A stretch of 64,000 nucleotides of DNA, taken from Devosia sp. (lineage in GTDB: Bacteria > Pseudomonadota > Alphaproteobacteria > Rhizobiales > Devosiaceae). The notes below the pieces were generated by a model, which ran no database searches, had not been told where the DNA came from, and worked only from the letters and a program-made list of their open reading frames with translations. The stretch lies in assembly GCF_014860165.1 (NCBI RefSeq), contig NZ_JACZKG010000075.1, positions 1 to 64,000 of the forward strand, written 5' to 3'. Below, one piece after another: positions 1 to 35,223 of this stretch (positions are counted from its first letter, which is position 1; the number at the start of each line of letters is the position of its first letter). The translations under genes were made by a program, and so were the position numbers.

Positions 1-397
1 GGGCGATGGCGGCCGGTGCGGTGCCAGCGCCCGAAATGACGATGCGCAGGGCCTCGAGGATGGCTTCGCCGCCGGCGGGAGGTGCGTCGGGCTGTTCGAT
101 CAGCTTGTGGATATGGTCCTTGGCATCGAGCGCCACGGCGATCAGTTCTGATGTGGCCGGGGTGTGACCCTTGCGGACCTGGTCGAAGGCGGTCTCGAAT
201 TCGTGGACGAAGGTGGCGACGGCGGTGAAGCCGAACATGGCGCCCGAGCCCTTGATGGTATGGAGGGCGCGGAAGGTGGAGTTGATCAGGTCGTCATTGG
301 CAGGGTTCTGCTCGAGGTCGAGCAGGCCCAGCTCGAGCTGGTCGAGCAGTTCCCTTGCTTCCTGGCGAAATGTCTCGGTGGGATCGGGGAAGCTCAT
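1..397 (-). CDS. cheA: Chemotaxis histidine kinase CheA, N-terminal part (cut by the window edge)
   Basis: Only the first 132 codons are inside the window. The translated start is an HPt domain with the phospho-accepting histidine in HTIKGSGAMFGF, at about residue 48, which is the P1 domain of CheA. CheA is the cytoplasmic kinase that autophosphorylates on this histidine and passes phosphate to CheY and CheB under control of chemoreceptors. The start ATG overlaps the stop of the upstream cheY gene (ATGA), so the two are probably translationally coupled. The P2-P5 domains lie outside the window. A free-standing HPt protein is a weaker alternative. Confidence 0.88.
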   Translation of the reverse strand, partial: MSFPDPTETFRQEARELLDQLELGLLDLEQNPANDDLINSTFRALHTIKGSGAMFGFTAVATFVHEFETAFDQVRKGHTPATSELIAVALDAKDHIHKLIEQPDAPPAGGEAILEALRIVISGAGTAPAAIA

Positions 398-762
398 GCG
401 CCGGTGACCTTCTTGATCACGGCCAGCAGCTGCTCCTGCTTGAAGGGCTTGACGATCCAGCCGGTGGCGCCGGCTTCCTTGGCCTGGCGCTTGAGCTCTT
501 CATCGGATTCAGTGGTCAGCAGGATGATCGGCACGCCCTTGCTGGCAGGGTGCTGACGATATTTCCGGATGAATTCGATGCCGTTCATGACGGGCATGTT
601 GAGATCGGTGATGACGGCATGGACCGTCTGGCTGGTGGCCTTGGTATAGCCATCGGCGCCATTGATGGCCTCGATGACATCGAGGCCCGCAGCCGAAAGC
701 GTCATCACCACCATCTGCCGGATGGATGCGGAATCGTCGATGGTCAGGATCGTCTTGCTCAT
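394..762 (-). CDS. cheY: Single-domain chemotaxis response regulator CheY
   Basis: A 122-residue receiver domain with no output domain. The acidic pocket D9-D10, phospho-acceptor D53 (in VITDLNMP), the threonine pair at 83-84 and K105 (in IVKPF) are all present. The length is that of classical CheY. It lies between a STAS-domain gene upstream and cheA downstream, with four-base overlaps at both ends, so all three form one operon. It should be phosphorylated by CheA and act at the flagellar motor or as a phosphate sink, since alphaproteobacteria often carry several CheY proteins. Confidence 0.93.
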   Translation of the reverse strand: MSKTILTIDDSASIRQMVVMTLSAAGLDVIEAINGADGYTKATSQTVHAVITDLNMPVMNGIEFIRKYRQHPASKGVPIILLTTESDEELKRQAKEAGATGWIVKPFKQEQLLAVIKKVTGA

Positions 763-1139
763 GCTGGCTTGCCCTCGCCCGGTCTTGCAGATTGTGTCCA
801 GAAGTCGCCATCGGGGGTCAGGGGATGGCCATTGGCATCAAGGCAGCCGACCTCGATCAGCAGCGCGCGCAGCACCCCTGAGGGCGGCGCGGCCAGGAAC
901 AGTGACTTGCCCGTGTCCCGGGCCTGCCTGTTGGCGGCCAACAACAGCTGGATGGTGGTGATGTCGGCGCCTGATATCGCCTCGGTCGCGATGGCGACCC
1001 TGTCGTGTCCGGTGAGCGCCTGGCGCAGCGACAAGGCGATGTCCTGGGCCGCTCGAAGGCCGGCATCGCCTGATATCTTGACCGTGTAAACGCTGCCCCT
1101 GGTCATGACAATGACCGGGCTGAAAAGCACGAAACGCAA
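759..1139 (-). CDS. STAS-domain protein, first gene of the chemotaxis operon
   Basis: A 126-residue protein that reads as one STAS-like fold: a short beta-rich start, a central segment ISGADITTIQLLLAANRQA typical of STAS helix 1, and a LRALLIEVGC segment near the end. STAS proteins usually work in partner-switching or as scaffolds. Small ones upstream of cheY-cheA are common in alphaproteobacterial chemotaxis operons. The stop overlaps the cheY start by four bases. The start is uncertain: an internal ATG at 1104-1106 gives a 115-residue product that begins closer to the domain, and neither start has a clear ribosome binding site. Confidence 0.7.
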   Translation of the reverse strand: MRFVLFSPVIVMTRGSVYTVKISGDAGLRAAQDIALSLRQALTGHDRVAIATEAISGADITTIQLLLAANRQARDTGKSLFLAAPPSGVLRALLIEVGCLDANGHPLTPDGDFWTQSARPGEGKPA

Positions 1140-1644
1140 CGCATAACTTTTACTACCGTTGGATGGGCGGCCGCAGCAGTGGAGCCGTATTATCTATCGA
1201 TCAATTACGCCGCTGACTGAGGCATTCCTTGATTTCACTACGCACATCGTATTCCCATCCGATGCATTACAGACTGTATGCGAAGTTGATTAAGGCACCC
1301 TTACTGATTGATACTTCCCTTGATCAATTTTCTTCTGCTCAAACTCAGCAAATAATCTGCGATTGATTCAGAATCCTCGCAGTGGATTCAGATGATCGAC
1401 TCAGTCTCGATTCTATTGCGTCGAGTCTTCGACTCAGACGGCGCGAGTCAGACTCGAATCAAGGGCAAAGTATTATTGCCGATCCGGCCCAGTATTGTTC
1501 GAGGATGCCAAATTCCGGCGACCGCCTGATCTTGCCCGGAACCTCGCGGGCCGGCATTTTTACCGGGGAACGCGGACCATTCGCGGCGCATGGACAAACC
1601 GCAGGGGTCCAAACGAGCGTGCGATGCCGAAAGGGGAAGGGGAG
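1140..1644. other. Gene-free, relatively AT-rich intergenic region
   Basis: These 505 bases hold no convincing gene. The part up to about 1360 is richer in A and T than its surroundings and is probably the promoter region of the chemotaxis operon. The part from 1365 to 1460 is a dense GANTC cluster, listed separately. The HD-GYP gene ends just beyond on the same strand. No terminator with a T-run was recognised. Confidence 0.6.
1365..1460. promoter_or_regulatory. Cluster of ten GANTC (CcrM) sites in 96 bases
   Basis: GANTC sites start at 1365, 1371, 1385, 1398, 1409, 1423, 1431, 1445, 1451 and 1456. Three pairs form small inverted repeats: GATTC-A-GAATC (1365-1375), GAGTC-TTC-GACTC (1423-1435) and GAGTC-A-GACTC (1445-1455). 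Several neighbours are 13-14 bases apart. Random sequence would give less than one site in this length. GANTC is the cell-cycle methylation target of CcrM, read by GcrA, and a gcrA gene is present in this window at 34.6 kb. A regulatory or chromosome-related role is an inference. Confidence 0.75.
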
Positions 1645-2691
1645 CTAGAAGCCGACCGCGGCGGCCTGAGCGCCACCCATGATGGCCTCGATTTCGGGCC
1701 ACTTGGCGCTGAAGGCGGCAACGCAGGCGGGGTCGAAGTGGCTGCCGCTGCAGGCGACGATTTCGGCATAGGCCTTCTCGATGGGCCAGGCCGCCTTGTA
1801 GGGCCGTTCCGAGCAGAGTGCGTCGAATACGTCGGCTATGGCCACAACGCGCGCCTCGATGGGGATATCGCCCCCCGACAGGCGGTCCGGATAGCCCGTG
1901 CCATCCCAGCGCTCGTGGTGGCTCTGCGCGATCAGCTCGGCGGTCCGGATCAGTTCGGACGAACCGTTCTCCAGGATGCGGGCGCCGATGGTGACATGCT
2001 CGCGCATGATCCTGAACTCTTCGGGCGTCAGCTTGCCGGGCTTGCCCAGAATGGCATCGGCAATGCCGATCTTGCCGATATCGTGCAGCGGCGCCGCCAG
2101 GTAGATCATGCGGCAGCGCTGGGCGCTGAGGCCGATGCCTGATGCAATGAGCTGGCTGATCTGGGCGACGCGCGAGACATGTTCACCCGTATCGCCGTCG
2201 CGATATTCGATGGCACGCGCCAGGCGCCAGATGATCTCCTCTTCACGCGCCAGCAGGTGCGCCGTGGCCGTCTCGACCTCACGCGCCAACCAGGCGGCGC
2301 GGTCGGCCAGCTCGACCTGCGCGGCGCGCAGGGTCAGCAGGTTGGCGACACGGGCCTGCAGCTCGGTGGGATCGAAGGGCTTGTTGACGAAGTCGGTGGC
2401 GCCTGCGCGGATGGCCTCGATGCGCGTATTGCGGTCCATGTCCGAGGTGACCATGACGATGGGCACCAGCCGGTAGGCGTCGCGGGCGCGCAGGGCGCTG
2501 GTGAACTGAACGCCGTCCATTTCGGGCATGATGTGGTCGACCAGCACCAGGTCGTATTGGGTGAGCCTGGTCTGTTCCAGGGCCTCGAAGGGATGCAGGT
2601 ATGCATCGATATCGGCGTTGGTGGCCGCCCTGACGATCGTACCGATCATGGCAAGGCTCGACCGACTGTCGTCAACGATCAAGATACGCAT
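1645..2691 (-). CDS. Response regulator with HD-GYP cyclic-di-GMP phosphodiesterase domain
   Basis: A 348-residue two-domain protein. Residues 1-120 are a receiver with D7-D8, phospho-acceptor D52 and the NKPF lysine at 104. Residues 145-335 are an HD-GYP domain with HD at 203-204 (LHDIGKIGI) and GYP at 266-268 (HHERWDGTGYP). HD-GYP enzymes hydrolyse cyclic-di-GMP, here probably switched by phosphorylation (RpfG type). No partner kinase is adjacent. The 140 bases upstream separate it from a plus-strand aminotransferase gene. Its nearness to the PilZ-tailed glycosyltransferase at 5.6 kb is suggestive only. Confidence 0.9.
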   Translation of the reverse strand: MRILIVDDSRSSLAMIGTIVRAATNADIDAYLHPFEALEQTRLTQYDLVLVDHIMPEMDGVQFTSALRARDAYRLVPIVMVTSDMDRNTRIEAIRAGATDFVNKPFDPTELQARVANLLTLRAAQVELADRAAWLAREVETATAHLLAREEEIIWRLARAIEYRDGDTGEHVSRVAQISQLIASGIGLSAQRCRMIYLAAPLHDIGKIGIADAILGKPGKLTPEEFRIMREHVTIGARILENGSSELIRTAELIAQSHHERWDGTGYPDRLSGGDIPIEARVVAIADVFDALCSERPYKAAWPIEKAYAEIVACSGSHFDPACVAAFSAKWPEIEAIMGGAQAAAVGF

Positions 2692-34447: not shown

Positions 34448-34643
34448 GACTCATGGTTTGTTAGGACAATTTTAACCAGTGAATTTACGGGGAAAGTCGC
34501 CCCCGACTCTTGATCCCGATTCCGCCGATGTCGTAAACTACATGGCATTGGGAACACGATATCTCGTGTGGCGGACCCACCTAACATACGACGCCTAGCG
34601 TTTGATGGTTGCCATGGCCATTTGGCAGCGCAATGAAGGATTC
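34448..34643. promoter_or_regulatory. gcrA: GANTC sites in the gcrA upstream region
   Basis: GACTC at 34448, GACTC at 34505, GATTC at 34518 and GATTC at 34639, four CcrM sites within 196 bases covering the likely gcrA promoter and start. In Caulobacter, gcrA transcription depends on GANTC methylation state, so cell-cycle control by methylation is likely here. The remaining gap 34291-34632 has the hairpin listed separately and no convincing gene. Confidence 0.6.
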
Positions 34644-35223
34644 TGTTTTGACGATGGTTTCAGGAGCACAATCGGCGGGCTGGACTGACGAGCGCGTCGA
34701 GACTTTGAAGAAGCTCTGGATGGAAGGCCTCTCGGCCAGCCAGATCGCCGGCGAGCTGGGCGAAGGGGTTACCCGCAACGCCGTGATCGGCAAAGTGCAT
34801 CGCCTCAAGCTGTCTGCCCGCGCCAAGCCGACCAATTCGGCACCGCGTGCGCGCCCGGCAGCCCGCCCGGCGCCGCGCCGCGTGGCCAGCCCCTCGGCCG
34901 GCATTTCGAGCATGGGTGGTGGCGCCGGCAAGGTGCGTCCACAGATGTCGTCGCGGCCGCAATCAATCGGCGCAACCGCGCTGGCGCATAATCCGGAAAT
35001 GGAGCAGCAGCTCTATGTGGCGCCTGCCGCGGCGGAACTGTTCATCCCCGAGGACAAGCGCCTGAGCCTGCTGCAGCTCACCGAAGCCACCTGCAAGTGG
35101 CCGATCGGCGATCCGCTGACCAAGGACTTCTACTTCTGCGGCCAGCATAGCCTCGAGACCGGCCCCTATTGCGAGTTCCACTCGCGCCGGGCGTACCACC
35201 AGGTCGACAAGAAGCGGCGCTGA
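34633..35223 (+). CDS. gcrA: Cell-cycle regulator GcrA
   Basis: 196 residues from the ATG at 34633. The N-terminal GcrA DNA-binding domain is plain: GWTDERVETLKKLWMEGLSASQI and GVTRNAVIGKVHRLKL. A basic, proline/alanine-rich linker follows. The C-terminal sigma-factor-binding part has a cysteine/histidine cluster (TCKWPIGDP, FYFCGQ, YCEFHSRRAY). GcrA binds sigma-70 RNA polymerase and activates promoters carrying methylated GANTC. The start is uncertain: 34609, 34633 and 34654 are all in frame, none with a good ribosome binding site, and the Caulobacter protein begins just before WTDERV. Confidence 0.93.
   Translation: MKDSVLTMVSGAQSAGWTDERVETLKKLWMEGLSASQIAGELGEGVTRNAVIGKVHRLKLSARAKPTNSAPRARPAARPAPRRVASPSAGISSMGGGAGKVRPQMSSRPQSIGATALAHNPEMEQQLYVAPAAAELFIPEDKRLSLLQLTEATCKWPIGDPLTKDFYFCGQHSLETGPYCEFHSRRAYHQVDKKRR

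Follow-up and report, generated by a model that had tools for sequence, protein, structure and literature searches.

The main chemotaxis (che) operon of Devosia is preceded by a dense array of GANTC, the word methylated by CcrM and read by GcrA, which in the genome described here comprises ten sites in 96 nt. The array is conserved in the genus as part of the che promoter together with a CtrA-like box, its sites are helically phased in several other clades, and the genome encodes both CcrM and GcrA. Such a dense array, phased in many species, suggests that methylation may help to time or to switch chemotaxis in the cell cycle. At slightly better than even chance, the array would be a multi-site platform for GcrA, methylated by CcrM and placed upstream of the CtrA-type promoter of this operon.

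Direct recount within the window, i.e. the whole 64-kb stretch of DNA that was analysed, gives the ten GANTC starts listed in a preliminary description of the sequence (1365, 1371, 1385, 1398, 1409, 1423, 1431, 1445, 1451 and 1456), and the three inverted repeats formed by six of these sites are all perfect (pairs 1365/1371, 1423/1431 and 1445/1451). The 13-14 nt spacing that was also pointed out holds for four of the nine gaps of this array and is a trait of the window's own clade. The word is avoided in the window, since 83 GANTC are observed vs 279 expected from dinucleotide shuffles; such avoidance is known for CcrM-bearing alphaproteobacteria (PMC3973325, in excerpt). When the intergenic region 1140-1644 is shuffled 3000 times with its dinucleotides preserved, at most five GANTC fall within 96 nt. 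A sample of the same genome (1,514,702 bases including the window, 34% of the genome) holds 1878 GANTC, which amounts to 1.24 per kb or ~0.12 per 96 nt, and the 96-nt clusters in it comprise 171 with two sites, 22 with three and five with four; clusters of five to nine are absent, and the single cluster of ten is the array. Its density is thus unmatched in that 34% sample, the runner-up clusters having four sites; in a second genus genome (G010) no 96-nt cluster reaches four GANTC in a 400 kb sample with its own array excluded. A repeat element or chance was rejected on the basis of the shuffles, the lack of a match in the genome sample and the conservation in relatives described below. Neither equally dense clusters nor loss of the array from relatives, the two outcomes that the preliminary description had named as contrary to its proposal, was encountered in the material examined.

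Features of the che locus and of the candidate reader gene in the window (nt positions; GANTC words have no strand).
Feature	Position	Strand	Basis or remark
cheA, N-terminal part (Hpt domain), continuing beyond the window edge	2..397	-	Pfam
Single-domain response regulator, cheY type (receiver domain)	394..762	-	Pfam
STAS-domain gene, che operon gene 1	759..1139	-	Pfam
Conserved block CGGATGGGAATACGATG / GGATGGGAATAC	1245..1261	-	One of the region's most conserved words
CtrA-like box GTAA-N7-TTAA, GTAAGGGTGCCTTAA	1290..1304	-	60 nt from the array; same place in 39/41 che copies
GANTC array, ten sites in 96 nt	1365..1460	none	Word count and conservation in relatives
Inverted pair GATTC-A-GAATC	1365..1375	none	Sequence
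Inverted pair GAGTC-TTC-GACTC	1423..1435	none	Sequence
Inverted pair GAGTC-A-GACTC	1445..1455	none	Sequence
AT-rich element AATAATACTTT, outer edge of the array	1467..1477	-	AAGTAWTACTT in several relatives
Response regulator, receiver + HD-GYP type, upstream neighbour	1645..2691	-	Pfam (receiver + HD)
gcrA, candidate reader of methylated GANTC	34681..35220	+	PF07750, 173.4 bits (cut-off 26.9)

The STAS gene is found in 39 of 61 genus genomes, in 41 copies, and the same 39 have the cheY; the other 22 are without both genes of this type. Inspection of the regions upstream of all 41 STAS copies, a check on conservation that had been proposed with the first description, shows that array and CtrA-like box are kept in 39 of the 41 che-operon copies (39 Devosia-genus genomes). 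The exceptions are G076, in which che and GcrA are present with no cluster and no box, and the second copy of G080, which lies near a contig end and has seven GANTC over ~280 nt, at most four per 96 nt, with no box. In 48 distinct regions (63 minus 15 duplicates) there are 3-10 GANTC each, on average 6.5, between positions -200 and -50 relative to the box and few elsewhere, in a layout that varies in detail from clade to clade.

Loci of the neighbouring HD-GYP gene separate the array from this neighbour. The named proteins that best match its product carry the label Devosia, at up to 95% identity. Eighty such loci were found, 51 scanned and 44 of Devosia type analysed, a set that overlaps in part with the 61 genomes. 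All 33 loci with STAS within 2.5 kb downstream have a cluster (3-9 GANTC per 96 nt), and all 10 loci without STAS in that interval are array-less (at most one GANTC per 96 nt); L073, in which the contig ends before STAS, was left out of this count. The array is also present in 10 che copies in which HD-GYP is missing from the fetched upstream sequence (L024, L025, L026, L030, L033, L034, L035, L037, L203 and L205), not counting L016, in which the contig begins 586 nt before STAS. Because the array tracks the operon, also without an HD-GYP neighbour, it is part of the che promoter, and a link to the HD-GYP gene was rejected on these two counts. Hence the initial placement of the array between a chemotaxis operon and a cyclic-di-GMP regulator is right as to position, and the array belongs with the che promoter beside the CtrA-like box and not with the regulator.

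Both flanking genes are read leftward, so that the array is upstream of STAS-cheY-cheA and downstream of the HD-GYP gene. In a relative (L040) the operon goes on with a 683-aa cheA-like ORF and then a cheW-like ORF, both named by eye. For the STAS gene of the window we infer that the ATG at 1106 is the likelier start. The consensus CtrA box is of the TTAA-N7-TTAA type, and the box upstream of che, with GTAA as its first half-site, is one base off this consensus; ctrA is generally present in the alphaproteobacteria. The word GGGAATAC from the conserved block is found in 39 of 56 upstream regions, a set that, like the set of 57 arrays used below, keeps a few duplicates (L201/L051, L202/L058, L206/L101 and L298/L069). 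This block is predicted to lie at or just past the che transcription start because the CtrA box is assumed to be at -35, and the array is ~100-200 nt upstream of that start, itself predicted from the CtrA-like box alone. The AT-rich element that borders the array on its outer side is possibly a site for another regulator, and words akin to AAGTAWTACTT recur close to the CtrA-like box in some relatives.

Base-level conservation was measured as mismatch between ordered pairs in an alignment of the 48 regions, with ten control words for comparison. Among pairs of 50-65% identity (408 comparisons) mismatch is 0.25 at the GA/TC bases of GANTC, whereas N reaches 0.55 and the flanks 0.53; at 65-80% identity (118 comparisons) the values are 0.12 for the core, 0.32 for N and 0.37 for the flanks, and the core value is the lowest among the 11 words tested. 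At 80-97% identity core mismatch is 0.04 (28 comparisons), a set that does not discriminate because several control words are equally low. In the most distant set eight of the ten control words have a core mismatch of 0.43-0.67, and GTNAC and TCNGA have 0.27; the CtrA-like box is the probable source of the low GTNAC value, and the flanks of TCNGA (0.26) are conserved as well as its core. Conservation of GA and TC over N and flanks is thus as expected if GANTC itself is selected. Neighbouring sites may abut. The flanks favour TGANTCA, with a preceding T at 0.41 vs 0.07 and a following A at 0.40 vs 0.16 in the other sites of the window, a lean that is due in part to the AT-rich region and that is not clearly the YGAKTCK extension given in excerpts of PMC7987155.

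Across arrays the distances between pairs of sites bunch at multiples of ~5.25 bp. Three subclades have their strongest period at 5.24-5.32 bp, the D. insulae group at 10.68 bp and one further subclade at 10.26 bp; in the window's own group it is a non-helical 7.42 bp. Of 41 arrays tested singly among the 48, 29 have p < 0.05 at 5.25 or 10.5 bp, values that are uncorrected and come from related sequences. In sets of 6-10 dissimilar representatives, drawn from 57 arrays (371 sites; arrays of fewer than four sites excluded), none of 400 random placements gave a 5.3-bp signal as strong, and the signal survives correction for the choice of period as well as removal of pairs closer than 9 bp; the mean cosine is 0.45-0.53 in the representative arrays, and 417 pairs of background GANTC give 0.054 (s.e. 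0.035). At 10.5 bp the representatives give a weak signal, matched by 2 to 136 of 400 random sets. Because the representatives share ancestry, the phasing evidence is strong yet not many times independent. The half-turn (5.3 bp) spacing of sites in several other clades is a new finding here. The window's array itself has no significant helical phase (p 0.32 at 5.25 bp and 0.87 at 10.5 bp), 15 of its 45 pairs lying near multiples of 5.25 bp vs 28.6% expected.

Half-turn or whole-turn spacing would fit close-packed proteins that share one side of the helix or sit on opposite sides. On this basis it may tentatively be proposed that the array is a methylation-addressed enhancer, i.e. a phased m6A lattice on which GcrA or another m6A reader would assemble a cooperative complex, through which the passage of replication would be linked to chemotaxis expression driven by CtrA. 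Regular helical spacing is also typical of cooperative operators, and together with the TGANTCA lean, in part a matter of the AT-rich setting, it would suit GANTC as the operator word of some other cooperative DNA-binding protein, to which CcrM methylation would be incidental or modulatory. However, conservation drops sharply beyond GANTC, the N is free and sites can abut, all of which would be odd for ordinary operators, and the word is exactly that of CcrM and GcrA in a genome that avoids it; an unrelated operator is thus a fairly unlikely explanation.

That GANTC is here a CcrM target read by GcrA, as first supposed, agrees with the gene content, since the genome encodes both proteins by domain matches. 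The GcrA of the window scores 144.1 bits with the NCBIfam model, under its curated cut-off of 280, and GcrA is found in 60 of the 61 genus genomes, G076 included. The CcrM-type methylase is a 377-aa ORF with N6_N4_Mtase and RAMA domains that scores 630.9 bits with its NCBIfam model, likewise under the curated cut-off (830). In the proposed GcrA platform CcrM would methylate the GANTC sites of the array, GcrA, a sigma70 cofactor, would read the methylated sites, and several GcrA molecules would share the array ~100-200 nt upstream of the predicted start, with CtrA occupying the GTAA-N7-TTAA box near -35. Passage of the fork would make every site of the array hemimethylated together and late CcrM would restore them, so that che expression would be tied to fork passage and to CtrA, and the many sites might make the response to methylation state steep or robust. 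We infer activation by the array, and not repression.

In excerpted work GcrA recognises promoter DNA that is methylated, contacts sigma region 2 and promotes open-complex formation (PMC7403470, PMC3667746), and GANTC sites, whether upstream or downstream of a promoter, are described as activating (PMC7987155, in part). In the Caulobacter data as excerpted from PMC3667746, GcrA occupies promoters whose GANTC is methylated, and the region richest in GcrA reads contains three sites. Several points tell against the GcrA platform. The GcrA footprint at ctrAP1 covers -35 to -10 (PMC3667746, in excerpt), unlike the array, which would be well upstream of the predicted start. According to the same partial text half of the top GcrA regions are without GANTC association, and the three-site CCNA_00697 region is not crippled by GANTC mutation, so that a high number of sites is no guarantee of control by GcrA. 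The array of the window has no significant helical phase, G076 has GcrA and no array or box, the flank lean is not clearly YGAKTCK, and the NCBIfam scores fall under their cut-offs.

The array might also work as a heritable on/off switch, in which a DNA-binding protein competes with CcrM, the array is either methylated or unmethylated, and che expression differs between cells. The parallel is Dam and OxyR at agn43. The best candidate for the blocker would be MucR, or else GcrA or CtrA themselves. According to the excerpts of PMC5172544, MucR keeps CcrM off GANTC sites at promoters of Caulobacter, and S. meliloti too has hypomethylated GANTC. MucR-family genes are present in all six Devosia genomes tested, and AT-rich elements of the AAGTAWTACTT type border many arrays. 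However, the sites of the array are numerous and their layouts drift among clades, whereas known methylation switches have few fixed sites overlapping one operator, and no blocker site was identified; on balance a heritable switch is unlikely.

The position of the operon on the chromosome bears on whether the array could be a titration sink for GcrA and CcrM, or a sensor of replication passage, that merely adjoins the operon. In four genomes the operon is 17-24% of the chromosome (~0.66-1.06 Mb) from hemE/parS, the sizes of three of the four being rounded values, and is therefore mid-arm there and not at the origin; GC skew over 20 samples of G010, used for placement of the terminus, gave no clean switch. 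The distance between gcrA and the array is 33 kb in the window, and in those four genomes 28-36 kb in three and 100 kb in the fourth. Both the mid-arm position and the nearness of gcrA would suit a sink or sensor, but linkage to gcrA is not general (more than 1 Mb from the operon in G063 and G025), the array is missing at the operon-less HD-GYP loci and accompanies the operon to other contexts, and 22 of the 61 genus genomes are without STAS and this cheY. Stand-alone titration or sensing is very improbable because the array goes with the operon. The first description of GcrA and CcrM as acting here is thus supported in part: a promoter function is the best reading, and titration, or the sensing of replication passage, for its own sake is disfavoured.

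Least probable is that the array serves as a chromosomal origin, belongs to a repeat element or encodes a structured RNA. The region upstream of hemE (L134 8936-9030; G000:C85) holds one of the five four-GANTC clusters of the genome sample, beside CtrA-like TTAA-N7-TTAA sites, and is a probable chromosomal origin in which the pairing of GANTC with CtrA-like sites recurs in weaker form. This likeness would favour an origin, but hemE and parS are ~0.66-1.06 Mb off, and an origin of replication was rejected on this distance, i.e. by the test for an oriC of hemE type. As for RNA, folding of the array exceeds that of shuffled sequence on either strand (z -2.41 and -2.65; equalled by 5 and 2 of 200 shuffles). 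However, folding that is equal on both strands is what palindromic words give, consensus folds are weak with just 6-25 pairs, Rfam gives no match in 1000-1800 up to E = 1, and the predicted che transcript would begin downstream of the array. The column-shuffle null for the consensus fold is too easy, breaking the GANTC words, and its z-values were not used.

Dense clusters of a methylation word that are read as a group are known from E. coli, where SeqA acts on GATC at oriC; methylase and reader are others, however, and the Devosia che locus is not an origin. Closer likenesses are the Caulobacter ctrA P1, mipZ, podJ and CCNA_00697 regions, which have GANTC in cell-cycle-linked promoter regions of a genome encoding CcrM and GcrA. 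The tested Caulobacter regions have one to three sites in the excerpts of PMC3667746, whereas in Devosia 3-10 are packed upstream of a chemotaxis operon with helical spacing in several clades. The Agrobacterium tumefaciens gcrA promoter, in which GANTC is over-represented and has been studied for methylation control, has a lower density of six GANTC in 250 bp, and CcrM represses gcrA (PMC11514494, in excerpt). Alphaproteobacterial ctrA promoters similarly have several GANTC upstream of a cell-cycle gene, at a lower density of up to 5-6 in 300 bp and at another gene (PMC8116508, in excerpt). MucR-shielded hypomethylated promoters share GANTC in regulated promoters, with MucR-family genes in Devosia too, but have one to four sites according to passages of PMC5172544. 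Within the open-licence literature the gcrA and ctrA promoters above are the densest encountered, and no paper was found on GANTC clusters or on GANTC in Devosia. Control by CcrM and GcrA has mostly been described at promoters with one to few GANTC, and a genus-wide array of up to ten that is locked to a CtrA-like box, and helically regular in several clades, makes testable how many marks are read together, whether they cooperate and whether replication sets chemotaxis. Such an array would also provide cell-cycle research beyond Caulobacter with a natural reporter of m6A at many sites.

Beyond the genus, an order-wide set of 199 genomes includes 29 with this cheY at E <= 1e-20, and 30 loci were scanned. 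At the 26 loci outside the genus there is no GANTC cluster of more than three in 1.5-kb flanks, outside of which the operon promoter may fall; only L173-L175 are close to this cheY (67-69% identity), and most of the others (44-59% identity) look like paralogs. Seven HD-GYP loci outside Devosia have at most two GANTC per 96 nt downstream of HD-GYP. The array is present in three of the four same-genus loci of the scan, L169 (the window's own), L170 and L171, and absent in L172 (G076).

Further GANTC groupings were observed in passing. Another of the five four-GANTC clusters of the genome sample sits inside a palindromic repeat, and an intergenic inverted repeat of the GTCATTCCCGCGCAGGCGGGAATCCA type (L136 1807-1915) bears GANTC sites. 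The region upstream of gcrA in the window has three GANTC in 75 nt (34448-34522). Two genomes, G011 (L024, L298) and G080 (L037, L208), have two STAS-cheY copies each, and in G011 the array has seven GANTC at one copy and three at the other.
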